This document shows positions 14,559-51,452 of a stretch of 53,814 nt of DNA, piece after piece (the stretch's first letter is position 1; each line of letters begins with the position of its first letter). The stretch lies in NCBI GenBank assembly GCA_020850325.1, contig JADZEW010000025.1, positions 1-53,814 of the forward strand, in the 5' to 3' direction. This DNA comes from Methanoregulaceae archaeon (GTDB lineage Bacteria > Armatimonadota > Fimbriimonadia > Fimbriimonadales > Fimbriimonadaceae). Below the pieces are notes generated by a model. That model saw nothing but the letters and a program-made list of their open reading frames with translations. It was not told the DNA's origin and made no database searches. The translations under genes and the position numbers were made by a program.

Positions 14559-14587
14559 CCCCCTCCTTTCCCGTGGAAAGGAGGGGG
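14559..14587 (+). terminator. Perfect hairpin after the terminase-portal pair
   Basis: CCCCCTCCTTTCC at 14559-14571 pairs fully with GGAAAGGAGGGGG at 14575-14587 around a 3-base loop, 4 bases after the portal stop. There is no long T-run, so it may be a stabilising or REP-like hairpin rather than a classic intrinsic terminator. Confidence 0.55.
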
Positions 14588-14631
14588 TTGGGGGTGGAGA
14601 GATCACCGAGCCAACCGAGCCCCCGCGCAAG

Positions 14632-14698: not shown

Positions 14699-15352
14699 TT
14701 ACTTGCGTCGGCGACGAAGCATGGCGGCAACGCCGAGACCGAGGGCGGCCATGGTGGCCGGCTCAGGAACCGCGGTGCCTTCGAACTCAAAAGCGAGGTT
14801 GCCCATTTCCGATTGCCAACCCATGGTATCGAAGAAGCTGTAGGAGTAGGTGCCGTTACCCTGGCTGCTCGTGCTCCAAGCCCAAGCGTCATCCTGCGAG
14901 GCCACGTTGATCGAACCGATGTTCAAGTGGTAGTTGCCCGCGGCGAGGTTGAAGTTGGTGGCCAACTCGAACATGTACTCGGGACCACCGGCAATGCTGG
15001 CTCCAAGTTGAGTGATCGTGAACCCGGCCTTGGGAACGATGCCGCCCTCGACGGTCGTGCCGAGCGGGCTCATGATGTTGACTTCCCAATCCGAGAAGTT
15101 GCTTAGGTCGGGAAGGAAGGCGTTCTCCGAGAAGCCCCAGAATCGGATGGTGGTGACGTTCCAGCCAGGCGCGCCGACGGTGAAGTCATCCGCCACGGTC
15201 TGACCATAGAACTGACCACCATTGGTGCTTAACGCGTCCGAGTAGACACCGTCGGCACCGTTAGTGGTCTGGCTGAACAGAATGTCAGCGCTGGCGCTGG
15301 CGGCGACGCCCAGGCTGGCGGCGATAAGAAGACTGGTCTTAAATAAATTCAT
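14699..15352 (-). CDS. PEP-CTERM sorting domain protein, paralogue A
   Basis: Secreted 217-residue protein of unknown function. A signal peptide (residues 1-22, ending ASASA) and a C-terminal PEP-CTERM tag (VPEPATMAALGLGVAAMLRRRRK, 195-217) mark it for exosortase-type processing and surface or matrix delivery. The body is Gly/Asn/Ser-rich, with no catalytic motif that I recognise. It shares a long pattern with the protein at 16157-16870: ADNF/ADDFTVG..GWNV..IRFWGFS, P.LTNFS.FEVN, GGIVPKAGFTIT, FNLAAG.Y.LN, WAWS. The two are paralogues from a duplication that now brackets a DUF559 unit. A shared TCGTGTAGGATGT lies upstream of both. Confidence 0.85.
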   Translation of the reverse strand: MNLFKTSLLIAASLGVAASASADILFSQTTNGADGVYSDALSTNGGQFYGQTVADDFTVGAPGWNVTTIRFWGFSENAFLPDLSNFSDWEVNIMSPLGTTVEGGIVPKAGFTITQLGASIAGGPEYMFELATNFNLAAGNYHLNIGSINVASQDDAWAWSTSSQGNGTYSYSFFDTMGWQSEMGNLAFEFEGTAVPEPATMAALGLGVAAMLRRRRK

Positions 15353-15471: not shown

Positions 15472-15602
15472 CTCAGGAGCATCGTTCCCACCTTCCCCTG
15501 CAGGGGAAGGTCTGTGAGCGACAGCCAACAGGGATGGGGTGGCAGTCAGTTCCACCCCACCTCTTCGCGCAAAAGCGCGAAGGTCCTCCCCTGCGAGGGG
15601 GG
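15472..15602 (+). repeat. Hairpin-rich R1 repeat, left copy flanking DUF559
   Basis: Order of parts: CTCAGGAGCATCG, hairpin CCTTCCCCTGCAGGGGAAGG, GTGAGCGACAG, GGGATGGGGTGG with its complement CCACCCCAC, hairpin CTTCGCGC-AAAA-GCGCGAAG, then CCTCCCCTGCGAGGGG. It is a direct repeat of 16030-16145, and the DUF559 gene lies exactly between them. A third copy at 116-190 is inverted. Confidence 0.8.
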
Positions 15603-15630
15603 AATAGCGAAGCCTTCCCTGGCAGGACAT

Positions 15631-16005
15631 CTACAAACCCAGTTCAGCCCTCCGACGTTCGATGGCCTCGTACAACTTCTCCATCGCATCGCCGAAGGGG
15701 TCGCGGACTTCCATGTTCCAGACCCTAACGACTCGAATTCCTTGACCTTCGATGAAGGTGTCCCGGCACCTGTCGTACTCCTTGCGATCATGATGAGATG
15801 TTCCGTCGACTTCGACGGCGAGGCGCAGTGCCGGACAGTAGAAGTCGAGGATGTACTCGCCCAACGGCTGCTGACGCCGGAACCTAAAGCCCAGCTGCGA
15901 GTTTCGAAGTTGCTTCCACAGCAGCTGCTCCGATTCCGTTGCGCTCTTTCGCAACTCTCGGGCGCGACGCTTCGAGTTTTCGCTATGGTTGCGAAGCGGC
16001 TTCAC
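15631..16005 (-). CDS. DUF559 small endonuclease-like protein
   Basis: 124 residues, a DUF559 protein related to very-short-patch-repair (Vsr) and PD-(D/E)XK endonucleases. Visible: a basic N-terminus with TESEQLLWKQLRN, FRFRRQQPLGEYILDFYCP (E50 and D54) and LAVEVDGTSHH (E65, D67, with paired His), the predicted metal site. It starts with GTG. The gene is bracketed by direct copies of a hairpin-rich repeat (15472-15602 and 16030-16145), so gene plus repeats look like one unit. Function is unproven. Such proteins are common as scattered single genes, and a role in copying or spreading the flanking repeats is my speculation. Confidence 0.82.
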   Translation of the reverse strand: MKPLRNHSENSKRRARELRKSATESEQLLWKQLRNSQLGFRFRRQQPLGEYILDFYCPALRLAVEVDGTSHHDRKEYDRCRDTFIEGQGIRVVRVWNMEVRDPFGDAMEKLYEAIERRRAELGL

Positions 16006-16029
16006 GAACCCATTTCACCCCAAGGTTGC

Positions 16030-16145
16030 GCTCAGGAGCATCGATCCCACCTTCCCCTAGCAGGGGAAGGACTGTGAGCGACAGCGAACAGGGATGGGGT
16101 GATCCTCGCGCAAGAGCGCGAAGGTCCTCCCCTGCGAGGGGAGGA
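16030..16145 (+). repeat. Hairpin-rich R1 repeat, right copy flanking DUF559
   Basis: Same order as 15472-15602, with CCTTCCCCTAGCAGGGGAAGG as the first hairpin. A short central part is missing (the CCACCCCACC arm). The CTCGCGC-AAGA-GCGCGAAG hairpin and CCTCCCCTGCGAGGGGAGG end are kept. The last bases lie about 12 bases from the stop of PEP-CTERM paralogue B. Confidence 0.8.
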
Positions 16146-16156
16146 ATCAATGCGGC

Positions 16157-16870
16157 TTACTTGCGGCGTCGACGGCGGATGTACGCGCCAGCGGCGCCGA
16201 GGCCGAGGGCCATGGTGAACGGTTCTGGGACGGCGTTGACCGTGTCACCCTCGATTTCGAATGCCATGTTCGTACCCTGGAATGAGTTCCAGCCGCTGGA
16301 CGTGAAATCTGAGTTGAATGCAAACTGATCGTCGCCTGTATCACTCGCGCTCCATGCCCACCAATCTCCAAGTCCTCCAGTTACGGTGTGCACAGCTCCA
16401 ACGTTTAGGAAGTATGCACCGGCGGCGAGGTTGAAGTTGACATTGAGTTCGAACTCATACTCATATCCGCCCAGCCCCCCGACGTTGCCAGTGGGCGTGA
16501 TCGTGAACGACGCTTTTGGAACCACACCACCCTGGATGACGGTGCCCACACCCGTGTTCGAGATGGTCAAGACATTGACTTCAAAAGCGCTGAAGTTAGT
16601 CAGATCGGGGTATCCAGGAGTGCCAGCAGCATCTGAGAAGCCCCAGAACCGAATCTTGGAGACGTTCCAACCTCCAGACCCCACGGTGAAGTTGTCGGCC
16701 TGTGTAACGCCAGAGGAGGTACCTCCTTGCGACAAAGCCTCCGAATAGGAGCCTATAACAGTTCCGCCAACCGCCGTGTCACTCGGCTGACTATACAGAA
16801 TCACTGCGTTGGCACTGCCAACCACCCCGACGCACGCCGCAACAATAGAAAGAACCCTCAAAGAACGCAT
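16157..16870 (-). CDS. PEP-CTERM sorting domain protein, paralogue B
   Basis: Secreted 237-residue protein. It has a signal peptide (MRSLRVLSIVAACVGVVGSANA) and a C-terminal tag VPEPFTMALGLGAAGAYIRRRRRK. The body aligns with paralogue A (14699-15352) through FTVGSGGWNVSKIRFWGFS, PDLTNFSAFEVNV, QGGVVPKASFTIT and FNLAAGAYFLNVG. The two are most likely products of a local tandem duplication. The ATG at 16870 is used because GAGG lies about 10 bases upstream on the minus strand; a GTG at 16891 would add seven residues. Function unknown. No exosortase gene is in the window. Confidence 0.85.
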   Translation of the reverse strand: MRSLRVLSIVAACVGVVGSANAVILYSQPSDTAVGGTVIGSYSEALSQGGTSSGVTQADNFTVGSGGWNVSKIRFWGFSDAAGTPGYPDLTNFSAFEVNVLTISNTGVGTVIQGGVVPKASFTITPTGNVGGLGGYEYEFELNVNFNLAAGAYFLNVGAVHTVTGGLGDWWAWSASDTGDDQFAFNSDFTSSGWNSFQGTNMAFEIEGDTVNAVPEPFTMALGLGAAGAYIRRRRRK

Positions 16871-16889
16871 AAGCTCAACCCTCAACCCC

Positions 16890-16902
16890 ACATCCTACAC
16901 GA
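16890..16902 (-). promoter_or_regulatory. Conserved upstream box of PEP-CTERM paralogue B
   Basis: Identical TCGTGTAGGATGT to the one before paralogue A, 19 bases before the ATG at 16870. Confidence 0.5.
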
Positions 16903-17839: not shown

Positions 17840-17850
17840 GAGGCAAGTCA

Positions 17851-17985
17851 GCGTGTTGGTTGTTGGCGTGTTGGTTGTTGGCGTGTTGGTTGTTGGTTGT
17901 TGGCAGTTAGCAGTTGGCAGTTAGCAGTTGGCAGTTGGGCAGTCGGCAGTTGGGCAGTCGGCAGTTGGCAGTTGGCAGTCGGGCG
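17851..17985 (+). repeat. Compound tandem repeat: 15-bp and 7-bp units
   Basis: Three exact copies of GCGTGTTGGTTGTTG (17851-17895) run into about twelve 7-8-base units of the type GGCAGTT/AGCAGTT/GGCAGTC (about 17896-17985). The array fills the divergent gap between ypfJ and kdsB. There are no spacers of the kind expected for CRISPR. Confidence 0.85.
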
Positions 17986-18045
17986 GCCCCCCGCGTCCGT
18001 CAATCATCACTCATCACTCACCCTCGTCACTCCTCCCTCTGGCGT

Positions 18046-45519: not shown

Positions 45520-46598
45520 TGTCGTCGTTTCTCGCCGAAGCTGAGCGTTGGCTGTTAGAGGAGGTTCGTCCCCGGGCGAACCTCCTCGACATTGATCCGG
45601 ACGCCCTCGGGGAAGCACTCAACGAGCAAGCCGCAAAGGGCTGGATGGCGCTCAAGCGTCCATCTGAGTTCGGTGGGCCCGCGCTCTCCGAGTCAGAGTT
45701 TCGGCAGTTCCAGGAACTCGTGGCGCGGGCCTCGGGCGCGCTTGCCTTCCTCCAGACTCAGCACCAAAGCGCGGCCTCCTTGATCGCGAAGGGTTCGAAC
45801 GAAGCCCTCAAGCACGAGGTGCTTCCCAAGATGCACGGGGCCGACCGGTTGATGGGGATTGGATTCAGCCAACTGCGTCGGCCTGGCCCACCCATGCTTC
45901 GCGCTTCTGCCACCGCCGATGGATACCGCTTGAGCGGCCATGTGCCGTGGGTGACCGGCTGGAGCATCTTCCCCGAGTTCGTGATCGGTGCCGCCCTGCC
46001 CGACGGCGAATCGGTGTTTGGGATCGTGCCGCTTGTGGACAGTGAGTTGCACGGGGGTGAGATTCGGTTCTCGCCTCCGATGCAGCTTGCCGCGATGGAG
46101 TCGGCCCAGACGGTCACCGCCGAACTGGACAACTGGCTCCTACCCCCGACCCATGTCGTGGATGTCAGGCCGCCGGGCTGGATTCAGAACAACGATCAGA
46201 TCAACGTGACGTTGCAGGGTCACTTTGCCCTCGGCTGCGCTCAGGCGGGCATCGACGTCGTGTCTGAGAACTTCGAGAAGCGGGGGCATGAGTTCCTCGC
46301 GCGAACCCGCGATGCGCTCTCGGCTGAGTTGTTTACCTGTCGTGAGGCGCTGGCGGGGAGTTCGATGGAAATCGCCGACGCGGACCGGCTGCATCGACGG
46401 GCGTGGGCGATCGATCTCGCCGCCCGGTGCGCCCATGCCGCGGTGGTGAGTTCCGCTGGCGCGGCGAACTCGGCGGACCACCCAGCCCAGCGGATTTATC
46501 GCGAGGCGCTGGTGTTCAGTGTCTCCGCGCAGACGACGTCGATCATGGAAGCGACGCTGGACCGCTTGGTCGCGCGTTCTTATGCGCTCCCCTTTTGA
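45519..46598 (+). CDS. Acyl-CoA dehydrogenase-like protein
   Basis: About 359 residues of the acyl-CoA dehydrogenase fold. Seen: N-terminal helical domain with GWMALKRPSEFGGPALSESEFRQFQELVARASGALAFLQTQHQSA, the beta domain with LMGIGFSQLRRPGPPMLRASATADGYRLSGHVPWVTGW (FAD-binding style, though the usual ...TEP.aGSD... is changed to SQLRRPG) and a C-terminal helical domain with AAGANSADHPAQRIYREA. I cannot place a clear catalytic Glu, and it is shorter than typical (about 380). It may act on a non-standard substrate. The ATG at 45519 overlaps the previous stop (TGATG); a TTG at 45516 is an alternative. Its stop lies in a REP-like hairpin. Confidence 0.75.
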   Translation: MSSFLAEAERWLLEEVRPRANLLDIDPDALGEALNEQAAKGWMALKRPSEFGGPALSESEFRQFQELVARASGALAFLQTQHQSAASLIAKGSNEALKHEVLPKMHGADRLMGIGFSQLRRPGPPMLRASATADGYRLSGHVPWVTGWSIFPEFVIGAALPDGESVFGIVPLVDSELHGGEIRFSPPMQLAAMESAQTVTAELDNWLLPPTHVVDVRPPGWIQNNDQINVTLQGHFALGCAQAGIDVVSENFEKRGHEFLARTRDALSAELFTCREALAGSSMEIADADRLHRRAWAIDLAARCAHAAVVSSAGAANSADHPAQRIYREALVFSVSAQTTSIMEATLDRLVARSYALPF

Positions 46599-46632
46599 GG
46601 GGAGCTGACGAGCGGAGCGAGTCTGAGGGGTA
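46586..46632 (+). repeat. REP-like palindromic unit overlapping the gene end
   Basis: GCTCCCCT-TTTG-AGGGGAGC hairpin, then GACGAGCGGAGCGAGTC and TGAGGGGTA. The layout (G/C hairpin, then GAGCG palindrome, then GGGGT) parallels family R1. The acyl-CoA dehydrogenase stop codon is in the hairpin loop. The rest of the gap (46633-46847) holds no gene. Confidence 0.65.
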
Positions 46633-51284: not shown

Positions 51285-51452
51285 ACCCTCGCTTTAAAGT
51301 GTCAGACAGACTCTGGGCGGGGTCAGCTAGGCACTGTTTCATTCAGGTTCAAATTGAATCTACAACATGACCATCAGCCAGACCCTGGCTTTGCCCCTCA
51401 ACCTGACCCTCCCTCCCCCCTTAAAAGGGGGAGGGTCTGGTGGGATAGATCG
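51285..51452 (+). other. Candidate replication-origin region of the element
   Basis: The gap between the ATPase and primase genes has repeated CTGACCCTC/CAGACCCTG units (51285-51293, 51380-51387, 51403-51411) and a strong hairpin (51405-51437, GACCCTCCC.. with ..GGGAGGGTC around an AA-rich loop), plus an AT-richer stretch (about 51340-51370). Iteron-like repeats next to helicase and primase genes suggest an origin, but this is not proven. The hairpin could also be a terminator. Confidence 0.35.

Follow-up and report, generated by a model that had tools for sequence, protein, structure and literature searches.

Two kinds of dispersed palindromic repeat have been described that resemble the elements reported here. 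In the first, the REPtron, a RAYT gene encodes a small nuclease and has palindromic repeats of its own, REP/REPIN sequences, on its borders (PMC2817692, PMC3116915). CGTC REPs, compared by description, are also palindromic, carry a different tag and were reported without a dedicated transposase (PMC3733652). The second kind consists of the PIT/TM elements, defined by the TM_ECO/PIT pattern CCCTCNCCC N3-6 GGGNGAGGG N3 GGGNGAGGG, for which Holder et al. 2015 (PMC4666352) report 3610 copies across 262 proteobacterial genomes. Between strains of E. coli, TM sites prove unstable, and the same study found neither a mobility gene nearby nor a shared function of the flanking genes. The TM_ECO triplex formed in vitro and was not detected stably in vivo, and an earlier study cited in the same paper found no terminator activity of TM motifs (PMC4666352). 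PIT/TM repeats have been recorded for years in hundreds of genomes, with no known enzyme and no explanation for the large differences in number between close strains.

Among described enzymes, the closest is the DUF559/YcjD family (PF04480, NF007294; PDB 3hrl), which shares domain and fold with the protein described below; an association with repeats is absent from the papers found. Vsr and the EDxHD homing endonuclease I-Bth0305I (PDB 3r3p) share the catalytic-domain fold and the conserved E, D and H positions. In Caulobacter, the DUF559 protein VsrA has been linked to DNA damage, with a proposed role in mismatch repair (PMC12907096).

The window, which is the whole stretch of 53,814 nucleotides that was analysed, contains a standalone DUF559 nuclease gene at 15631..16005 on the minus strand, encoding 124 aa from a GTG start. 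The ORF matches Pfam DUF559 (PF04480) with an E-value of 1.4e-33 and 115.5 bits, above the curated cut-off of 20.6, and the TIGR00632 vsr profile with 22.8 bits, below its cut-off of 97.85. The AF2 model (mean pLDDT 90.9) is best matched in the PDB by 3hrl, followed by the catalytic domain of I-Bth0305I and by Vsr; the predicted fold thus supports the Vsr-like PD-(D/E)XK nuclease named in an earlier note on this DNA. E26, D54, E65 and H71 are invariant in 37 homologues and D67 is nearly so, consistent with a putative catalytic site formed by these five residues. Unlike Vsr and I-Bth0305I, the DUF559 gene of the window comes without an intron or intein, and its target would be a repeat.

The gene is located between two copies of a hairpin-rich repeat, R1, each about 120–130 bp long. 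The left copy (15472..15606), a complete inverted doublet, begins with CTCAGGAGCATCG. Its half A contains hairpin 1 (ACCTTCCCCTGCAGGGGAAGGT; 15490..15511, plus strand) and a G-rich tail (GGGATGGGGTGG; 15531..15542, plus strand), a candidate third strand that mirrors the purine arm at 8/9 positions. Half B (15552..15602, minus strand) follows with tail' CCACCCCACC, hairpin 2' TCTTCGCGC-AAAA-GCGCGAAGG and hairpin 1' CCTCCCCTGCGAGGGGGG. The right copy (16029..16147) has the same orientation and is missing about 20 bp, corresponding to tail' of half B. Its hairpin 1 of half A is at 16050..16070 (plus strand) and its hairpin 1' of half B at 16125..16145 (minus strand); its third strand, GGATGGGGT at 16092, mirrors the purine arm at 9/9 positions. 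A gap of 25–28 bp separates the gene from R1 on both sides. A 24-nt core of R1 occurs twice in the window (0.00 expected from shuffles), and alignment of the two flanks of the gene scores 83, compared to 14.4±2.0 for shuffles. Coordinates, core count and flank alignment confirm the two direct R1 copies, one on each side of the gene, that the earlier note had described. The genes flanking the site, both on the minus strand, are paralogues with 55% identity (14699..15352 on the left, 16157..16891 on the right); both had been called PEP-CTERM genes, of which the paralogy holds and the PEP-CTERM motif is reported for the left one.

Other repeats are scattered in the window. A supposed solo R1 copy at 116-190 is indeed related to R1 and is a half-B element only, with a degenerate stem, near the contig end (138..193, minus strand). 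At 14559..14607 (plus strand), a solo element (CCCCCTCCTTTCC..GGAAAGGAGGGGG + TTGGGGGTGGAGAG) belongs not to R1 but to the family bordering the DUF559 paralogue of locus L002. Positions 46586-46605 and 51411-51435 show more hairpins, C-rich and followed by G-rich tails, that seem to be solo elements of other families. Tandem VGCWR/VGSWA units, a minisatellite-like stretch, appear in the translation of an ORF at about 17850-18000, upstream of a KdsB-like gene.

Aligned copies define R1 as an inverted doublet of two related half-elements, in the order hairpin 1 (CCTTCCCC/GGGGAAGG), hairpin 2, tail, a short spacer that differs copy by copy, and the related half reversed. In the predicted fold the two tails pair together, and hairpin 2 shows compensatory change, with three pair types. 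About 35 dispersed matches to R1 (E below 1e-5) are present in the window genome. Many lie near contig ends, suggesting that the assembly was broken by R1. At five loci (L013, L014, L016, L017 and L018), R1 near a contig end is joined to a common string, CTTCCTCTTACGCTATCTTGCAGGGG, which could be a hybrid element or else an artefact of assembly or adapters.

The window genome encodes four standalone DUF559 genes, as well as a DUF559 domain within a 1580-aa frame. All four standalone paralogues have hairpin repeats near both ends, belonging to four different families, while the domain in the 1580-aa frame has no flanking hairpin repeats. The earlier note had held that DUF559 genes lacking R1 would speak against its proposal. 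R1 is absent from the other genes, yet each carries its own family of like kind.

This association extends far beyond the window. In a first set of 31 testable standalone DUF559 loci, from the window genome and 60 relatives, a C-rich hairpin was found within 300 bp at 24 and a repeat common to both flanks at 22. The hairpin definition was fixed after inspecting the first 34 loci, and two further sets, of 80 and 35 loci, serve as independent tests. The 80 loci, 78 of them testable, represent many phyla (Armatimonadota, Planctomycetota, Chloroflexota, Cyanobacteria, Proteobacteria, Acidobacteria, Bacteroidota, Patescibacteria and others). A C-rich hairpin is present within 300 bp, on either side, at 92% of the 78; in the same loci the figure is 4% for random positions (n=6156) and 5.8% for short genes (n=535). 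A flank-to-flank repeat is found at 38.5% of DUF559 loci, versus 0.5% of random positions and 2.4% of short genes. The 35-locus set gave a hairpin at 34/35, and DUF559 domains inside long ORFs at 0/9. Since a permissive Smith-Waterman control produced many chance matches in GC-rich loci, stricter scoring and the hairpin test were used instead. YcjD relatives are rare on plasmids, occurring in 43 of 72,556 plasmid records, several of which are megabase-sized replicons.

The hairpins lie mostly upstream of the gene (83% of the 78 loci, versus 41% downstream), the nearest upstream one at a median of 49 nt before the start codon. This distribution, the lack of an obvious T-run, the conserved G-rich third strand, the high copy number and the terminator result cited in PMC4666352 make it scarcely credible that these intergenic stem-loops are ordinary transcription terminators, even though some are directly downstream of the DUF559 gene. 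Hairpin polarity (C-arm first in 90/91) was discarded as a sign of orientation, since reverse-complementing such a hairpin leaves its appearance unchanged; orientation is readable from the tail alone and shows a modest inward tendency. Flanking repeats are inverted in Bradyrhizobium and several Pseudomonas loci, and direct doublets in the window and elsewhere. Thus, there is no single strict element end.

Two further observations concern these loci. At L050 and L052, from relatives, the C-terminus of the DUF559 ORF is made of translated repeat units (HPGLTATPPREGNGN...). Two Nostoc species (L078 and L141) carry near-identical DUF559 units with equal upstream repeats and different downstream sequences, a difference that suggests relocation or local rearrangement.

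Across phyla, 191 DUF559-linked hairpins from 97 loci were compared with their adjacent strands. The match of the adjacent strand is highest to a mirror of the purine arm (mean 0.95), lower to a direct copy (0.89) and lowest to shuffles (0.77), and where the arms are asymmetric the mirror is favored over the direct copy by 44:6 (p=3e-8). Other C-rich hairpins in the same loci also obey this rule, as expected of solo copies. In Pseudomonas and E. coli, the repeats linked to DUF559 fit the TM_ECO pattern, and they share inverted pairing, intergenic location and instability between strains with PIT/TM. R1 carries a hairpin of ~20 nt in the second loop, so it departs from the exact TM_ECO pattern with its 3-nt loop. 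Judged by sequence, the DUF559-linked repeats are orphan PIT/TM-type intrastrand-triplex motifs, which differ from those described in having an identified gene partner, DUF559, and in reaching well beyond Proteobacteria. The earlier note had recognized the string of hairpins and missed their triplex nature.

The pairing of enzyme and repeat is specific. In the Pseudomonas genus to which P. citronellolis belongs, covered by 25 species, there are two DUF559 subfamilies, A and T, at roughly 50–60% identity. Without exception, the tail CCCTCACCCC accompanies A genes (6/6) and the tail CCCTCTCCCC accompanies T genes (10/10). In the T type, overlap of the repeat with the stop codon gives the protein the ending PSPQPSP. 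Counted genome-wide as exact 21-mers, T-type repeats number 21–228 with a T gene and 0–44 without (p=9e-5, phylogeny ignored), and A-type repeats are commoner where an A gene is present (p=0.019, phylogeny ignored). All genomes with a DUF559 gene have at least 23 repeats, whereas half of those without have at most 14. Some genomes (G087, G088 and G096) have many repeats and no DUF559, which indicates that the repeats outlast the gene or that another factor acts.

One could suppose that triplex repeats are merely unstable intergenic hot spots for dispensable small genes, with DUF559 as one passenger. The instability of TM sites among E. coli strains (PMC4666352) would fit, as would an unrelated small-gene pair at one Bradyrhizobium site (below) and the deletion by recombination that direct R1 copies would permit. 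We regard this as improbable, given how seldom other short genes have the hairpin (5.8% versus 92%), the exact pairing of subfamily with repeat variant, the fixed repeat position at the stop codon, and the absence of repeats at DUF559 domains inside long ORFs.

In its cognate family for each paralogue, and in a repeat abundance that tracks the gene (phylogeny ignored), the DUF559 system resembles the REPtron. R1-type repeats likewise resemble REPs in forming inverted doublets with a variable spacer, dispersed in intergenic DNA. The enzyme, however, is a Vsr-like PD-(D/E)XK nuclease rather than a Y1/HuH transposase, and the R1 consensus is a triplex motif without the GTAG tetranucleotide at the hairpin foot. 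Both systems coexist in the window genome, which has eight Y1_Tnp genes. Most Pseudomonas genomes also have some, so RAYTs could be imagined to move the repeats in trans, as for GTAG REPs. Neither R1 nor a C-rich hairpin is present at any of the eight RAYT loci, six of which have their own inverted repeats. Y1 gene number and repeat number are uncorrelated in Pseudomonas (p 0.5–0.8), and three genomes with no detected Y1 gene (G084, G091 and G097) nevertheless carry 51–98 repeats. On these grounds RAYT was rejected as the driver, and its action in trans on such repeats is very improbable.

Sites with and without the gene were compared at three places. In G001, the one further genome examined from this genus, the two paralogues flanking the window site are conserved (55% and 51% identity), and the interval of ~257 bp between them contains exactly one R1-type element, in the orientation seen in the window and with conserved sequence to its left and right. 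The same site is therefore R1-DUF559-R1 in the window genome and a solo R1 in G001, a polymorphism for which ordinary recombination of one direct R1 copy with the other is an alternative explanation. More generally, such recombination between repeats could also account for gain and loss of the gene that lies between them. Between 6S RNA and zapA, six Bradyrhizobium species carry the unit in inverted orientation, hairpins outermost and tails inward; others have a solo hairpin, a palindromic scar or nothing. The tree is compatible with one origin and several losses, with gain versus loss not polarised. In the Bradyrhizobium genome G183 (L228), an unrelated small-gene pair, possibly a BrnT/BrnA-type toxin-antitoxin, replaces DUF559 at this site beside a broken triplex hairpin. 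Six Pseudomonas species have the gene in the fleR-fliE interval, and the others lack it there. Intervals without DUF559 (L185, L189, L191 and others) often contain what seem to be classic RAYT-type REPs (GTAGGAGCGAGCTTGCTCGCGA), so that one intergenic site hosts both kinds of repeat. Variation between filled and gene-less sites among relatives, on which the earlier note had made its idea depend, is thus found at all three places. The dN/dS ratio of DUF559 is 0.04–0.13 in Bradyrhizobium and 0.08–0.30 in Pseudomonas, indicating that the gene is under purifying selection.

We propose that standalone DUF559 nucleases and their cognate triplex repeats form a pan-bacterial two-part system that spreads by nuclease-driven copying, a reading to which we assign a probability of about 60%. 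The cognate repeat is a hairpin with a pyrimidine arm and a purine arm, accompanied by a G-rich third strand, and frequently occurs as an inverted doublet. The nuclease would recognize its own folded repeat, probably in single-stranded DNA at replication forks, and nick or cut it. During repair, the element or a gene enclosed by two elements could then be copied to further sites, whether or not these already carry a repeat, much as in homing or in a REPtron, and cutting without templated copying could remove the gene and leave a solo hairpin. Of the repeat family that the earlier note suggested, linked to DUF559 and resembling REP/RAYT, the association therefore stands (linkage, cognate specificity, copy number, filled and empty sites); cleavage and movement of the repeats by DUF559 are what we infer from sequence patterns, and the repeat-flanked gene is a candidate autonomous unit at most.

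The strongest competing view is that of an enzyme of repair or autoregulation, one that acts on the repeats but does not mobilise them. DUF559 would resolve triplex hairpins genome-wide, its own repeats would be operators or mRNA elements, and the repeats would spread by other means. The fixed repeat positions (a median of 49 nt before the start codon; exactly at the stop codon in E. coli as well as in Pseudomonas), the Vsr-like fold, the strong purifying selection and the link of Caulobacter VsrA to DNA damage and, as proposed, to mismatch repair (PMC12907096) could all be read in this way. It leaves unexplained, however, why repeat number depends on the gene, why a separate dispersed family goes with each paralogue and why gene-less sites retain a solo repeat, and we consider it unlikely, although less so than the other alternatives. 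If the two-part system is real, REP-like replicators would have arisen at least twice, with unrelated nucleases, and DUF559 would be a first lead to an enzyme reading intrastrand triplex DNA.

The DUF559 protein of E. coli K-12 is YcjD. A shortened form of the motif, CCCTCTCCC-TGA-AAGAGCGAGGGGG, contains the stop codon of ycjD; a complete TM motif comes about 150 bp downstream, before fabI. In E. coli KE47, a full CCCTCACCCCAACCCTCTCCC is present at the ycjD stop codon, identical to Pseudomonas type A. The gene occurs in 3365 of 5426 E. coli genomes. Among 59 evenly sampled genomes, those with ycjD have 14–31 TM-like places (median 22, n=37) and those without have 2–19 (median 9, n=22; p=7e-10); since this correlation follows phylogroups, it is supporting rather than decisive. 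Outside E. coli, there are Enterobacter strains with more than 300 TMs, and Salmonella has no TM_ECO. We see an even chance that standalone DUF559 proteins are a second, RAYT-independent class of repeat-spreading enzymes with intrastrand-triplex DNA as substrate, ycjD being cognate to the PIT/TM repeats of E. coli. The link would connect these repeats to a named, uncharacterised K-12 gene and give a large protein family of unknown function a partner. The open-access literature yielded no paper tying ycjD or DUF559 to these repeats, and our claim of novelty is bounded by that scope. The sapF-fabI interval was rejected as a clean empty site, since strains lacking ycjD carry an efflux operon there (PMC12817139). 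The 3' end of ycjD (GGAGACGGTGCTGGAGAATATTC) occurs in two copies around the stop-codon repeat; compared to MG1655, E. coli strain 167 (L296) carries a 127-bp deletion between these copies, which truncates its ycjD.
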